Source: Fluviicola sp. XM-24bin1
Lineage (GTDB): Bacteria; Bacteroidota; Bacteroidia; Flavobacteriales_D; Crocinitomicaceae
Length of the DNA stretch: 64,000 nt
Reading direction: 5' to 3'
Assembly: GCA_003149635.1 (NCBI GenBank)
Contig: QCWI01000006.1
Location: forward strand, 1-64,000
Part shown: positions 5,363 through 11,363 of the stretch, in pieces
How positions within the stretch are numbered: the stretch's first letter is position 1
Layout: each line of letters starts with the position of its first letter
Translations under genes and position numbers: made by a program
Notes under the pieces: model-generated
The model's database searches: none
The model's input: the letters and a program-made list of their open reading frames with translations, nothing else
What the model was told of the DNA's origin: nothing

Positions 5363-5466
5363 GGGATAATAGATTGATCTTGGCGCTAGCGATGAGCGAT
5401 AGACTTCAATTCTTTGCAGTTTCTGTATAACGACCAATATTCTTAATTACAATTAGTATAATTGAA

Positions 5467-6117
5467 TTATTGCTGGGTGTATTTTTTTGAAATAGGTAAT
5501 TTCAAACCATTTACCATCCAATAGCTTCGTGTTTTTAATTTCACTTTGTCGAGGCAAACAGCATTTTTTTTGTGAACTCGTTTGATCGAAATGAATTCTG
5601 ATAGCAATTCCACCAAGTAGGTCAATGATTTTCTTACCGATATTGTGCCGCTATCAGTGTGAATTTTAACGTAAGGTGTATTAGCTTCGAGAAATAAAAT
5701 AGAATCGAGCTCGATTCTTATTTCCTTTTTCCCATCCATAATGATCACAAAACCATCTTGTTTTTTCTTTAGTAAAATTTTTACGAGAGCGTTAATGTCA
5801 GCTTCTTTATAAGGTTTGTTAAGATAGCCTGCTGGCCCATATTGGATCGCCTGCGTGATTGTTTTCTCATCTCCGAAAGAAGTCAAAAAAATAATGGGGA
5901 TTGATTTCTCTTGGCAATGATCTGCGAATACAAAACCATCCGCTTTACCATTAATCTGAATATCAATAATTGCGGCATCAAACGATCTGGCCTGTATATT
6001 GAATAATGCACTACTGAGCGTATTATGTAAGGAGCAATGATTGACGCCAAATTTCTTCAAAGTGTTTTGAATTGAATAGGCGATTAAGGGTTCATCTTCC
6101 AAAATAATTACCTCCAT
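5467..6117 (-). CDS. Response regulator, receiver plus LytTR DNA-binding domain
   Basis: 216 residues. The receiver domain (about 1-120) has the acidic pair in ILEDEP, the phospho-accepting Asp in AAIIDIQING, the Thr/Ser region IPIIFLTSFGD and the conserved Lys in GYLNKPYKEAD. The C-terminal part (about 125-210) is a LytTR domain, with the typical ILFLEANTPYVKIHT and FISIKRVHKKNAV segments. It would bind DNA when phosphorylated. Its ATG overlaps the stop of the upstream kinase-like frame as TAATG, so kinase and regulator were built as one translational unit. That kinase frame is broken (see 6117-7448), so this regulator may now lack its cognate kinase. Confidence 0.92.
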   Translation of the reverse strand: MEVIILEDEPLIAYSIQNTLKKFGVNHCSLHNTLSSALFNIQARSFDAAIIDIQINGKADGFVFADHCQEKSIPIIFLTSFGDEKTITQAIQYGPAGYLNKPYKEADINALVKILLKKKQDGFVIIMDGKKEIRIELDSILFLEANTPYVKIHTDSGTISVRKSLTYLVELLSEFISIKRVHKKNAVCLDKVKLKTRSYWMVNGLKLPISKKYTQQ

Positions 6118-7448
6118 TAGCTAATTTTTAAATTGAATTTATATTCCAGCCCTCCATGAATCGAGAGGTTATTTTCGTGTTTCAACGATGAACCAAGAAG
6201 AATACTTATCAACTCCATCCCGAAACGTGGCTTTATTTCTGAAACGCTCTGCAGTTTTCTCCCATTATCTGAATACAAAATGGTCAACGCTTCTTTATGC
6301 GATTCTGTAATGGTTAAGAAGGTTCGTTTTTCATCATTTCGGTTCCATGCATGTTTGACTGAATTAGTGATCATTTCATGCAGAATCATTCCTAAATTAG
6401 AGAGCTTTTCAAAATAAATACTAACATCAGGAAAGTCAAGATGAACGTCAACAGTATTTTCAATAATCCCAGCCAAGAGATCCTCCATGTAAAATTGAAG
6501 AGATACATTTCCAGAAGTATTTGGTGCTCCGGACGTTTATAGTAATTTATGGAGTGAAACGAGAGCATCTAAACGGCCAGAAAACGAATCAAGAGTATCG
6601 GCTATTTCTGGTGAAGATGCCAAATCAATTTGCACATTTAACAGACTCTTAACCACCTGAAGATTGTTTTTTACTCGATGATTTAATTCTCTCAATAACA
6701 AGTATTTTTGTTTGATCAATGACTCAAGGTTACTTCTTTCTTTTTCTAACTCTTCCTCTTTTCGTTTTCTTTTATCAATCTCATCAGATAATTCCTGATT
6801 CATGCGAGAAAGTTCCTCCACCATTTTGTAGTGCACTTGAATGTCAATAGAGTTTTATGGTAATCTTTCATGAAGAAGCTCTTTTGAGGTGATCACTTCT
6901 GAATATAGAGGAAAAACTTCGTTACAGTAAAAATTTTGTTCGAACATTGTCCTGCCGGTGATACAATCTGAAAGCATGTACACCTCAAAACCTTTGTCAT
7001 AGGCAGATCTACCGGTAGAATCAATACAAATAGAACAAACGCAACCGGCTAGCATAATTTTTTCAATGTTGTTCGTTCTAAGATACGTTTCTAAGTCGGT
7101 GTTTATAAAAGCATTTAGTCCATGCTTTCCTTCCATGCGAACAATACGTTCACCGATACTTTGAAATTCTGGCACCTCTTCAGCACCAAAAGTATTTCGT
7201 TTAAATGCACCAAGCTCCTTAATTGATTTTAAAATCCCTACTGGATCTTCAAGCTCTTCATACAATTCAGAGAAGACTATTGTAGTTGAAATTATAGCGA
7301 CAGATTCCGGTAAATCATGTATGAGATTTAATGTGTTTTGTAACACGTTTAATTCGTGCAACATGTCCTCTATAAAATCTTACAAGATGCCTTCCTGAGA
7401 GAAATAGTCGTTTTGAAAACCTATTAAAAGTAATGCAGTATTTGACAT
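6117..7448 (-). pseudogene. Isochorismatase-like domain joined to HisKA_2 histidine kinase, broken by three in-frame TAA codons
   Basis: One minus-strand frame of 444 codons runs from ATG 7448 to the TAA at 6119-6117. Reading through internal TAA codons at 7382-7380 (codon 23), 6857-6855 and 6539-6537 gives a coherent protein. Codons 1-22 read MSNTALLLIGFQNDYFSQEG then IL, the first strand of an isochorismatase fold. Next come the rest of that fold with the expected Cys region (AGCVCSICIDSTGRSAYDKG), a coiled-coil linker, a HisKA_2 H-box (RELNHRVKNNLQVVKSLLN) and an ATPase domain with N-box ILHEMITNSVKHAW and GMELI. No frameshift is seen. The usual catalytic Asp of the hydrolase (ID in the first strand) is Gly here (LIGFQ). 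It overlaps the LytTR regulator by TAATG. It is either a decayed gene, sequence error, or suppression; decay or error is likelier. Confidence 0.75.
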
Positions 7449-7599
7449 AAATTTTTGAGTGCCTTTAAGAGGTGTAAAAAATCTACAGTAGCTTACTTTC
7501 TAGGTGCACAAATTGTACTTGAAATCTCACTTTTTGTATTTGAAATACGATTGTCGCGTTTGGCGCGCACTTTTTACTTAAGTTGTCTAACTTAAAGTC

Positions 7600-7989
7600 A
7601 TGGATTTGCCGATGAGATCTCACGTTGTTGACCTTGGGTTTGTTCGATTTTTTATAACCGATAACGATATAGTTGTCTCTGACTACATGAAAGGAGTTGT
7701 TTTGGATTTGGAAAAATCCAAATTGGTTCACTCATATATAGGAGAATTGTGTGATTACAAGCCTAAAAATCAACTTTTTTTGGCATGCGATGGACTCGAA
7801 GCTAACAGAGAAGTAAGAGCTTGGGGATTAACCGAAGACGCGAGTAAATATACCATAAAGTCGGCTATAGTGTGTGAATCTCTAGCGCATCGAATAATTG
7901 GTAATGTTCTCATCAATTTGAGAGGTTTTCCGCGTCAAACCAAAATATTCGCAGAAACAGATAGGGCTATATCTTGGCTTTTGGAATAA
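7600..7989 (+). CDS. STAS/SEC14-like small protein (SpoIIAA-like, DUF7793-type)
   Basis: 129 residues, no signal peptide or membrane segment. The pattern of short strands and helices, a central KYTIKSAIVCESLAHRIIGNVLI segment and the end QTKIFAETDRAISWLLE are like the small STAS/SEC14-type proteins common in Bacteroidota. In those, the ending reads like TK(I/L)F.DE..AL.WL. Their role is not well known; a partner-binding or signalling role is inferred from the STAS fold. The gene is divergent from the broken kinase frame. The family call rests on pattern memory, not an alignment. Confidence 0.6.
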   Translation: MDLPMRSHVVDLGFVRFFITDNDIVVSDYMKGVVLDLEKSKLVHSYIGELCDYKPKNQLFLACDGLEANREVRAWGLTEDASKYTIKSAIVCESLAHRIIGNVLINLRGFPRQTKIFAETDRAISWLLE

Positions 7990-8530
7990 CGACGAAATTT
8001 CCTGATGTGGACTTATTGGACTCTTATGGTTTCATGCTTTCCGAAAGCTTATATGTAACAGGTTTCACGAATTTGCCAGTTAATTCAAAGCATGGTCAAA
8101 TGATCGTTGAAATGAGCTTATAATTCCAAAACCAGAAATATTCATCTCATTTCGGCAACAAAAAAAAGGCATACAGGTACTTTTTTAAGATTCTTGGTGC
8201 AGAAATGACTTTCTTCTTATAGAGTTAGTACCACGGGGTTCGCTGAACTTGAATCTACACTTGGAGAAATACCGATTAGGGCAAACTTTCCATTTAAAAA
8301 GGATTTGGGAAAGTTTCTTTGCAGGCTAGCGATGCAATCTAGGCGGCAAAGACGGTAAAAATATTTCAATTGTAGGACTACACAGCAAGCCGCTCAGCGA
8401 AAAGAATTGTGTGATCGGCTTGCTTTGTTTGTTATTTGGAATCCAACTACACTCAAATTTGCCATTGATTAGATTAATTCTTTCCTAAGGCCAAAAACAA
8501 AACGAATATTGTTTACTGACAAATTAAGCT
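7990..8530 (+). other. 541-base gap with coding-like scraps, no intact gene
   Basis: No complete gene is seen. Two stretches read like protein but lack proper starts. One is 7992-8123, ending at a TAA at 8121-8123; its only ATG is at 8034, giving 29 residues starting MLSESLYVTGFTNLPVNSK. The other lies about 8230-8358 and includes LGEIPIRANFPFKKDLGKFL. I do not recognise either. They may be relics of signalling genes, in keeping with the broken kinase nearby. A terminator-like hairpin closes the stretch (8385-8433). Confidence 0.35.
8385..8433 (+). terminator. Hairpin with T-rich tail
   Basis: Arms GCAAGCCG (8385-8392) and CGGCTTGC (8416-8423) pair perfectly over 8 bases, around a 23-base loop, and are followed by TTTGTTTGTT. 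The long loop makes it a weaker terminator candidate. Confidence 0.45.
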
Positions 8531-9163
8531 ATGAATGCATACTCAAACTTTACGAATTACCATGGCGAACCTAACCCACTGCCAGAAAATGTTCAATATT
8601 TTTACCACGACCTAATAGGGCCAATTATTTCCGGTTTAAAATTGATGATTCACAATGACCTCATTTCAGAGGGAAACGGAGAGATTGGTCTGAAATACAT
8701 TAGTGTATTAAATGAACTACAGAGGAAATTGCAGGAAGGCATTGAATTCAACGATGATAGTACAGGCTTGGAAAAGAAGATTCAAGATTTAATGACCTTC
8801 TTTCCTCATGTAGATTTCCGTTCATGCATTAAAATAAGTGCGAAAATAGGGGAGTATTTATCTTCTAATTTACTTTTACTCATCTCCGAAATCATAAATA
8901 ATCTTGTCAAGCACGACAGAATTAAAGTTCTTGATTTAAAAATAAAAATTGTTGAGGAACGCATCGAGTTACAATTCAAGCACGATTGCAAAGGATTAAG
9001 TCAATCAAGATTTGATGTCTTAAGTAAATCTTCCAATAAAACCTTAGGGATTCAATCTATTTCAAACAGGTTAAGCAAATTGAATCTCGAGATTATTTAT
9101 CGAACGGGTGTGATTGAAGTGTATTCGTCTCGCTCCAAACCATCACGTGAAGAGGGAATATGA
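8531..9163 (+). CDS. Small cytosolic sensor-kinase-like protein (HisKA_3/HATPase type, degenerate)
   Basis: 210 residues, no membrane segment and no sensor domain. The segment QYFYHDLIGPIISGLKLMI resembles the HisKA_3 phospho-acceptor helix (LHDxLGPLLSGIKL), with the His in YHD. The C-terminal half holds a recognisable N-box, LISEIINNLVKHDRIKVLDL, and a G2-like LGIQSISNRLSKLN. The G1 box (DxGxG) is replaced by KHDCKGLSQ, so ATP binding may be weak or lost. It lies in the same neighbourhood as the LytTR regulator and the STAS-like protein. It could be a reduced kinase, a phosphatase-like partner, or a decaying gene. Confidence 0.55.
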   Translation: MNAYSNFTNYHGEPNPLPENVQYFYHDLIGPIISGLKLMIHNDLISEGNGEIGLKYISVLNELQRKLQEGIEFNDDSTGLEKKIQDLMTFFPHVDFRSCIKISAKIGEYLSSNLLLLISEIINNLVKHDRIKVLDLKIKIVEERIELQFKHDCKGLSQSRFDVLSKSSNKTLGIQSISNRLSKLNLEIIYRTGVIEVYSSRSKPSREEGI

Positions 9164-9223
9164 GGCATCAATGCTAACTATAAAAGGCCGAAAGTCACTT
9201 TGATCACTTGATTGCAGTGCGCT

Positions 9224-10237
9224 TTAGTAACACTTAAAACAAGCGTCAACGGGTGTTGTGGTTCCATTGATAACAGCCGCACCGATAGGTTGAAGCGTCC
9301 ATCCCGCAGGACATGTCTGACCATCGTAGATATACATTACAGTACATGGCGAATCAGTGTAACAAGCATCTACTGGGACTCCTCCGAAAATGGCCACGTT
9401 GATCTGTTGTGTGCTCCATCCAGCAGGACACGATTGTCCATCATAAATGTACATTACCGTACCGGGTGCAGAACCGCCTGTTGGAGGCACAGCCACCCAA
9501 TTGTTCCCATCAAATTCTAGAAGATCTCCTGCGTTGGCGTTTGTCGGTAGTTCAATCTCATTCGTTGGATCGTTATCGGCGTCATCAACCAAATCGATGG
9601 CATAGTCACCTAAGAATACCTGCCCTCCGTTGGACAAGTATAACGTATCGTTAGAAAAGGATAGCACTTGTATTTCATTGGTAGGATCGGCATCTGCATC
9701 ATTTACGCCATCCTGAAGAACTGATAAATCCACCGTACTTCCATTTGAAATCGTCAAGTCCGTTCCGTTCAGCGTAAGATCTTGAATTTCATTATTTGGA
9801 TCTGCGTCAGCGTCGTTCACTTGATCATTGACTGCACTCTCGGCGGTTTCGCTGTGTAGCGCGTAAGGAACGCTTAAAAATTGAGTGGTACCCGAAATGG
9901 AATAATTGGTTCCACCGGCTGGATCGATTTCTGTTTGAATGAAATACGTTCCGTTGCCCCAATCGATTAATGTAAAATCTCCCGAAATGATGGATCCAGT
10001 TCCTACCTCCAATGTGGCAAGACCGTTGTTATTGGTTTGAATAGTATGTTGCTCCTGATAGACGATTACACCAGTCGTACTGTTTTGACGGATACTGATT
10101 TGCATCCCAACAGGACTGTTTTGAAGCAAGTTATTGGACGCGTCTCTGACAACGGATTGATACGTAAATTTCTGGGGGCTTTGCGCCATAGATAGACGGG
10201 CGATGAAGATCATCGCGAGCAGTAGTAGATTTCTCAT
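9224..10237 (-). CDS. Secreted repeat protein with tail-fibre-like N-domain and duplicated C-terminal module
   Basis: 337 residues beginning with a signal peptide (MRNLLLLAMIFIARLSMAQ). The next 115 residues, from SPQKFTYQSVVRDASNN to TTQFLSVPYALHSETA, form the beta-rich domain common at the front of Bacteroidota surface proteins. Three copies of a DADxDPxNEI motif follow (about residues 140-230); these aspartate-rich loops probably bind calcium. The C-terminus has two similar units, each with VMYIYDGQxCPAGW and a later VDAC, so it arose by tandem duplication. No C-terminal type IX sorting domain is evident. Function unknown; a surface or adhesin-like role is inferred. Confidence 0.75.
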   Translation of the reverse strand: MRNLLLLAMIFIARLSMAQSPQKFTYQSVVRDASNNLLQNSPVGMQISIRQNSTTGVIVYQEQHTIQTNNNGLATLEVGTGSIISGDFTLIDWGNGTYFIQTEIDPAGGTNYSISGTTQFLSVPYALHSETAESAVNDQVNDADADPNNEIQDLTLNGTDLTISNGSTVDLSVLQDGVNDADADPTNEIQVLSFSNDTLYLSNGGQVFLGDYAIDLVDDADNDPTNEIELPTNANAGDLLEFDGNNWVAVPPTGGSAPGTVMYIYDGQSCPAGWSTQQINVAIFGGVPVDACYTDSPCTVMYIYDGQTCPAGWTLQPIGAAVINGTTTPVDACFKCY

Positions 10238-10275
10238 GTGACTAAGTTAAGAAATCTGCAATTTTATAGTAATCT

Positions 10276-10740
10276 CTATTTCTTTTCTTCACGCAAAATT
10301 TTCTCCATTTTACGACCTTTTGCCAATTCGTCAATCAGTTTTTCCATGCGTCTGCAATCGCGGTACAAGGCGAATTCTTCAGAAATATCTTCAATTCGAT
10401 ACCCGCATACCACGCCTTTAATCAAGTGGGCATTTTGATGCATTTTGGCTCCCGCGAAAAAATCTCCAAACGATCCTTCACCGGAAATGAAGGTTTCCAA
10501 TGTTGCTTGATCATAATCTGTTCACCACAAAATAATTTGGTCGAGTTCTTCTTTGGTTCTGCCATGCTTTTCTATTCTTTTCAGATAATGCGGATAAATG
10601 GAACCAAAGTTCATTTTTGCGATTTGCTCATTTTTTTCTGCTGTAACTTCTGGCATGATGGAAGGTTTATGGCGGTTAATGACAAGGTGTTCGTGGTCGG
10701 GTGATGGATCTAGTTCTCGAAGATCGCACTTTTCGGCCAT
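10276..10740 (-). pseudogene. DUF2200 family gene interrupted by in-frame TGA
   Basis: Two frames, 10740-10522 and 10521-10276, are in the same register and separated only by a TGA at 10524-10522. Together they give a DUF2200-like protein: IAKMNFGSIYPHYLKRIEKH and GRTKEELDQIILW before the stop, then TDYDQATLETFISG, AHLIKGVVCGYRIEDI and LIDELAKGRKMEKILREEKK after it. In this family the Trp is usually followed by Leu-Thr-Gly, so TGA stands where TTA (Leu) would be expected. There is no frameshift. Restart inside the second part is possible only at a TTG. It is likely a recent nonsense mutation or a sequence error. The function of the family is unknown. Confidence 0.75.
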
Positions 10741-10899
10741 TGTTTTGGGTTAGTCGATGGATGGGGTTATGGATTTGAAACCCCTAAGTAATTGTGATCT
10801 GTTTGCGTAATTGTTGCAATTATTTTGGGTTAAAAATGAGTATTTGTGTCGCATTGACAATCCATTATGTACGTATTACTTTGGTGTAAAATTTTATTT

Positions 10900-11037
10900 A
10901 TGAAAATTCAAGCTATTAAACCAGGGCCTAAAAGAACCGCTAAATCAACGGGGAAACCAGACAGAATACAAAGAGATAACAAAAATACACCAGGAAACAC
11001 TCCGTCATTAAAGCCAAGTAAATCAACCAAGAAGTAA
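10900..11037 (+). CDS. Putative 45-residue Lys/Pro-rich basic peptide
   Basis: ATG at 10900, TAA at 11035-11037. The product is very basic and polar: it starts MKIQAIKPGPKRTAKSTGKP and ends SLKPSKSTKK, with no hydrophobic segment, so it is likely disordered. It would be followed 10 bases later by a second short ORF, which hints at a two-gene unit. It has no recognised family. Composition (Lys, Thr, Pro, Asn) also fits chance translation of an A-rich stretch, so the call is tentative. Confidence 0.3.
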   Translation: MKIQAIKPGPKRTAKSTGKPDRIQRDNKNTPGNTPSLKPSKSTKK

Positions 11038-11047
11038 TTATTATCGA

Positions 11048-11209
11048 ATGAACATAGCAAGCACCCTTAATAAAATTAAGCTGTTTGAAGAGTTGGTGAT
11101 TGAGTCTGGGTTTAAAAGGGACGCAATTGATTACCATCAGTCAATACAACAAGCACATAACCGAAACTTAACTTTCATGAAGGATTTATCGGAAACGATC
11201 ATATTGTAA
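11048..11209 (+). CDS. Putative 53-residue protein
   Basis: ATG at 11048, TAA at 11207-11209. It starts MNIASTLNKIKLFEELVIES, continues GFKRDAIDYHQSIQQAHNRN and ends LTFMKDLSETIIL. The amphipathic helical pattern is more protein-like than a random frame. It may be the front part of a longer gene that has been lost, as with other broken genes nearby. No family recognised. Confidence 0.3.
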   Translation: MNIASTLNKIKLFEELVIESGFKRDAIDYHQSIQQAHNRNLTFMKDLSETIIL

Positions 11210-11337
11210 AAGGAAATATTCTTCAGCATGCAATTTTGTGCTTTCATTAGAACTCAACTGAGATAAACGAGCCTGACTGATTCCAGTTCTTCCCGATACC
11301 ATTGCTCAGTTAATTGATTTCTTAACCTGTAAGACCT

Positions 11338-11363
11338 TTGTTCTCTCCAATCCCCTATCTTTG
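11338..11363 (+). promoter_or_regulatory. Putative promoter of queD-folE unit
   Basis: TTG at 11338-11340 and TATCTTTG at 11356-11363, a good -7 box, with a shortish 15-base spacer. It lies 16 bases before the preferred TTG start at 11379. Confidence 0.5.

Follow-up and report, generated by a model that had tools for sequence, protein, structure and literature searches.

A broken frame on the minus strand of Fluviicola sp. XM-24bin1 was found to hold two genes, and the locus is probably a lineage-specific copy of a conserved signalling cassette that is now decaying. The DNA analysed (the window) was a stretch of 64,000 nucleotides of contig QCWI01000006.1. The frame (6117-7448, 444 codons) carries TAA at codons 23 (7382-7380), 198 (6857-6855) and 304 (6539-6537), and its translation agrees exactly with the initial annotation, which had described three nonsense changes of one kind in one gene. 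That description was retained for codons 23 and 304; codon 198 is the position at which the corresponding protein ends in nearly all relatives.

With the stops read as X, Pfam placed Isochorismatase (PF00857) at residues 4-189 (E 1.3e-28, 100.7 bits, cut-off 27) and HisKA_2 at residues 254-330 (E 7.4e-15, 55.3 bits, cut-off 22.3). These two matches are far from chance. The match to HATPase at residues 347-406 was weak and under the cut-off (E 0.0044), so that of the isochorismatase, H-box and ATPase-box segments previously recognized around the stops, the first two were confirmed above cut-off and the third as a weak match. The isochorismatase-like gene (gene 1; 6855-7448, minus strand, 197 codons and the TAA at codon 198) belongs to the isochorismatase superfamily on the PF00857 cut-off, and its open piece at 6855-7364 reached 94.0 bits by itself against the same cut-off of 27. 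The second gene (6117-6854, minus strand; PF07568, E 5e-15) belongs to the HisKA_2 histidine kinases on the domain cut-off and is of the HisKA_2/HWE type. It has no single continuous open frame through the ATPase part; the TAA at 6539-6537 falls between the phospho-acceptor and ATPase parts. An intact response regulator with receiver and LytTR domains (5467-6117, minus strand; PF00072, E 4.2e-17; PF04397, E 8.6e-9) follows, and its start overlaps the kinase stop.

Relatives of gene 1 were taken as the best 80 of 146 loci confirmed in a scan of public genomes. In 79 of these 80 the isochorismatase-like protein is stand-alone, and its frame runs for 187 to 209 residues from the start of the match, which puts its end at the position of the middle TAA in the window. 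On this comparison the middle TAA is the natural end of gene 1 and no lesion, and the same count rules out one fused gene with three lesions. The alternative named earlier, in which the stops would be natural ends of separate genes, thus holds for codon 198 and fails for codons 23 and 304. The proposed fusion of an isochorismatase to a HisKA_2 kinase was not borne out, since the stand-alone protein is usually followed by a separate partner. The sole exception (L087, Desulfogranum mediterraneum) is a true single-ORF fusion with PAS, HisKA, HATPase and receiver domains, and its kinase is of a different type from the HisKA_2 kinase of the window. In the closest relative (G022) both proteins are uninterrupted and encoded by separate genes, with sense codons at the positions of codons 23 and 304. 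Comparison with intact homologs at the three codons, as the initial annotation had recommended, separates the middle stop from the other two. The G022 sequence is apparently the 4.2-kb contig JAQXBM010000059.1 of a Crocinitomicaceae MAG, which is itself among the 80 loci (as L025); identity to the window is 59% for the first protein, 46% for the kinase and 44% for the regulator. The same contig carries a 501-residue open frame (L021, 84-1589, minus strand) that we take to be transposase-like.

The signalling protein downstream of gene 1 begins with a conserved motif, roughly ELxxQIQYRLIEELxxSExRYR. This partner motif was found just downstream in 73 of the best 80 of 146 loci (once within the L087 fusion), at most 315 bases from the stop of the first gene. 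It was not found downstream in the other seven (L053, L059, L068, L084, L095, L098, and L100); two downstream matches of 2.8 bits, in L068 and L098, were treated as chance and counted among these misses. The window locus belongs to the cassette as defined here, with the motif just downstream of gene 1 at about 6851. Directly after the middle TAA the window kinase matched a motif profile built without the window at 26.9 bits (E 4e-6), and alignment A5 also shows the motif; the coordinates 6747-6854 (minus strand) come from a profile whose rows include the window.

A standard start codon lies 2 to 25 residues before the motif in 70 of the 72 separate partners; the nearest one overlaps the first gene in 23 of these 70, by exactly four bases in 13. 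In G022 the kinase ATG likewise sits inside the end of gene 1, in another frame. No ATG, GTG or TTG was found in frame between the middle TAA of the window and the kinase motif (beginning at about 6851-6854), and ATT codons are the only start-like codons ahead of standard ones inside the motif. An ATG at 6871-6869 (minus strand) overlaps the end of gene 1 in a frame other than that of the kinase, and may be the old kinase start. The lack of a standard start in frame ahead of the window kinase motif makes a small frameshift likely where the two genes meet: a small insertion or deletion there would explain both the shared frame and the missing start. A non-standard start is a possible alternative, and the partners of L045 and L046, two loci with an identical protein and one isolate name, likewise have no standard in-frame start before the motif (2 of 72). 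The earlier statement that the frame contains no frameshift is correct inside the frame as read and doubtful at the junction.

The motif and the isochorismatase-like gene are linked. Genome-wide linkage was examined for 25 of the 80 loci, whose genomes had been selected because they carry the gene; six of these genomes had supplied rows of the motif profile and 14 rows of the isochorismatase profile. These genomes contain 26 family members at 299-335 bits, and other isochorismatases among the matches listed reached at most 68 bits. All 22 motif matches (in 21 of the 25 genomes) lie on the same strand as a family member and within about 350 bases downstream of it, one of them inside the L087 fusion. 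Given how the genomes were selected and the six profile rows, the result is to be read as the motif occurring nowhere else in them. At the cut-off no motif match accompanied the family members of L038, L053, L068, and L095; the L038 motif reached 24.7 bits in separate profile scoring, and a convincing motif was not found anywhere in the other three of the 25 gene-bearing genomes.

Profile searches of the order and the phylum scored at most eight candidates in the genomes listed. The order sample (399 genomes) yielded six close family members, at E 1.1e-86 or better, and seven motif matches below E 1e-6. Six of the seven are in the gene-bearing genomes, and the seventh is in G557, where 93 bases of contig follow the motif. 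The rows of the motif profile included the window, G022, G671 (with the same partner sequence as L031) and G478, and excluded G536, G557 and G560. Three weak motif matches (E 6.5e-5 to 2.9e-4) occurred in genomes of one other genus that hold no family member; they lie in frames of 987-997 residues and were not counted as partners. Among the matches scored in the phylum sample (395 genomes), the genome of the window alone had a close family member. The four weaker matches are other isochorismatases, with Glu (L105, L106) or Asp (L108) at the triad position, or partial (L107).

Outputs attached to the motif are varied. Domains were tallied for 71 of the 73 partners, including the partner part of L087 and excluding L045 and L046, which have no standard start: HATPase_c was found in 64, PAS in 61, HisKA in 58, receiver in 25, GGDEF in 4, EAL in 3, and HisKA_2 in 1. 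The partner of L109 has GAF domains and a weak match to SpoIIE (E 5.8e-5, 23.6 bits, cut-off 25), and that of L111, which is cut at its end, has GAF and no SpoIIE match. The best 80 of 146 loci represent at least ten labelled phyla, 6 of the 81 tree rows (window included) carrying no phylum label. The Cyanobacteriota form one group on the tree and the Pseudomonadota are scattered over it; multiple changes along the tree do not prove transfer. The nearest neighbour of the window protein is the G022 protein (support 99/95). A plasmid-borne cassette was unsupported: the protein of L061 (Pseudoalteromonas) had no match at E 1e-30 among 72,556 plasmid records.

In the window the locus lies in an AT-rich segment of 5.98 kb (5376-11355), with a G+C content of 0.377 compared with 0.437 for the rest of the window. 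The detailed comparison within the genus covered G018, G025, and G022. Judged by two flanking proteins (90-96% identity), the first two are the nearest relatives; both lack the segment at this site, where about 100 to 120 bases separate their aligned flanks. Exact repeats longer than 8 bases were not found at the segment borders, and a search for repeats around the locus gave nothing useful. Beside the broken kinase, the segment encodes on the plus strand a DUF7793 protein (7600-7989) and a HATPase-like protein (8531-9163; weak, under the cut-off). It also holds a DUF2200 gene (10276-10740, minus strand) with one in-frame TGA (10524-10522), which when read through gives an otherwise full-length Pfam match (E 5.5e-41). 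It is the only interrupted gene noticed elsewhere in the 64 kb; the codon-usage scan used to look for others is too weak for the purpose and misses short genes.

Of the three explanations offered initially for the stops (recent decay, sequence error, and readthrough), recent decay is the best supported. The premature stops are absent from the intact homologs, as in a pseudogene. The window frame shows weak codon usage (0.03-0.07 per codon, compared with a training mean of 0.12), although the lowest training ORF is at 0.01. For relaxed selection on the remaining codons the signs are mixed. The end branch of the window on the tree is longer than that of its sister (0.8 vs. 0.45), and at 11 positions the first protein carries a residue that none of the relatives has in that column, as many as only 3 of the 80 relatives reach; at conserved columns it lies within the range of the relatives. 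The column of codon 23 is itself variable (His 31, Arg 14, Tyr 14, and Thr 9 of 80 relatives). With all changes equally likely, a single-base change in the frame would be nonsense in about 5.4% of cases, with 13.6 missense changes per nonsense change; two nonsense changes therefore imply a modest number of others. Leaving the stops aside, the window copy is no more divergent at conserved columns than intact copies are: of 27 otherwise invariant columns one is changed (P56T), and 7 of 80 relatives differ in at least one of these columns. The decay, if real, is therefore recent. Decay by itself does not require conserved columns to be as intact as in relatives, and this conservation counts against it.

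The same conservation of the first protein would be expected if the two premature stops were sequencing or assembly errors and the cassette were intact in the cell. We consider this unlikely in view of the dense map of long ORFs in the window, the weak codon usage of the frame, and the location of the only other interrupted gene noticed, which is in the same inserted segment. Still less probable, to the point of being improbable, are functional stops, with either readthrough or a kinase made in pieces, its phospho-acceptor and ATPase parts apart. The codon-304 TAA does fall between those two parts, translation of the ATPase part could begin at an ATG at 6488, and the frames on both sides of the stops remain conserved. 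Against this, G022 has no premature stop, and the codons corresponding to 23 and 304 are sense there, which disfavours recoding. HATPase_c is in the same ORF as the motif in 64 of 71 partners, and a restart after codon 23 would drop the first strand of gene 1 (residues 6-11 in the L087 model). TAA is moreover the commonest stop in the window, where it ends 26 of the 56 ORFs of at least 120 aa (among the 26 are two pieces of this locus). It is therefore an ordinary stop here, and a general change in its meaning is ruled out.

Whether the family is catalytic bears on what the intact cassette does. The catalytic triad of the isochorismatase superfamily is Asp-Lys-Cys; Asp-Lys-Gly members also occur, and none without Asp is given in the available part of that account (PMC8849098). 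The window protein does not have the complete triad: the catalytic Asp position is Gly in the window and in all 80 relatives (best 80 of 146), whereas Gln12, Lys108, and Cys141 are kept in all 80. The Gly count is partly the result of selection, because one of the two search patterns for relatives requires Gly at this position; the six order members found by profile have Gly there too. In an AlphaFold model covering residues 1-330 of the L087 fusion (mean pLDDT 88.3, pTM 0.68) an isochorismatase fold is followed by the motif as one helix (213-242), and then by another mixed domain at the position of the Pfam PAS match. We propose a ligand-sensing pseudoenzyme that may dock on the partner helix. 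A small molecule would bind in the former active site of the gene 1 protein, the protein would dock on the N-terminal helix of the partner, and the ligand would then switch whichever output is attached. A competing interpretation of the sequences, in which the protein is catalytically active and, as a hydrolase, produces or removes the signal of its partner, deserves some weight and is less probable. It would fit the retained active-site Cys, Lys and Gln and a fold close to BiuH and RutB, and it is at odds with Gly at the position of the catalytic Asp, including in the profile-found members.

Comparison with known systems shows where the family departs from them. It shares its fold and the Lys-Cys and Gln positions with the isochorismatase/cysteine hydrolase superfamily (PF00857), but unlike that superfamily it is linked to a signalling partner. 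The nearest solved structure, 3kl2, ranks top by sequence (E 5.6e-37, two-row profile A1) and is also the best fold match for the L087 model (36% identity); it has Glu where the window family has Gly. An NCBIfam cut-off was reached by none of the three intact relatives tested. The window kinase shares the H-box domain, the weak ATPase match and an adjacent receiver-LytTR protein with HisKA_2/HWE kinases that have a LytTR regulator, but its N-terminus is the conserved partner motif and the copy is interrupted; Pfam found no sensor domain other than the motif ahead of HisKA_2. RsbT/RsbU, as presented in the available part of PMC12143880, offers a parallel to the proposed pair in that a separate protein activates a serine/threonine phosphatase by binding; here the partner has an isochorismatase fold, and docking is only presumed.

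No description of the isochorismatase-like/partner pair was found among the matches listed in the literature searched, a body of text mostly without subscription journals. It is an even call whether the family is a widespread, undescribed sensory module of at least ten phyla, in which an isochorismatase-fold pseudoenzyme binds a common metabolite and is plugged by a short N-terminal helix tag into interchangeable outputs (histidine kinases, hybrid kinases, cyclic-di-GMP enzymes, and PP2C-type phosphatases), with a decaying copy in the window. The stops themselves are probably ordinary decay together with one natural gene end. In Fluviicola sp. XM-24bin1 the module is probably dead, and the response regulator, itself intact, would have lost its kinase. 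For the family, what matters is an enzyme fold, seemingly without its catalytic acid, that is coupled to several output types via one short shared motif. If the proposed mechanism is true, the pair would serve two-component and cyclic-di-GMP signalling as a portable input module; its docking site can be tested, and the strong conservation of its pocket would suggest a single common ligand.
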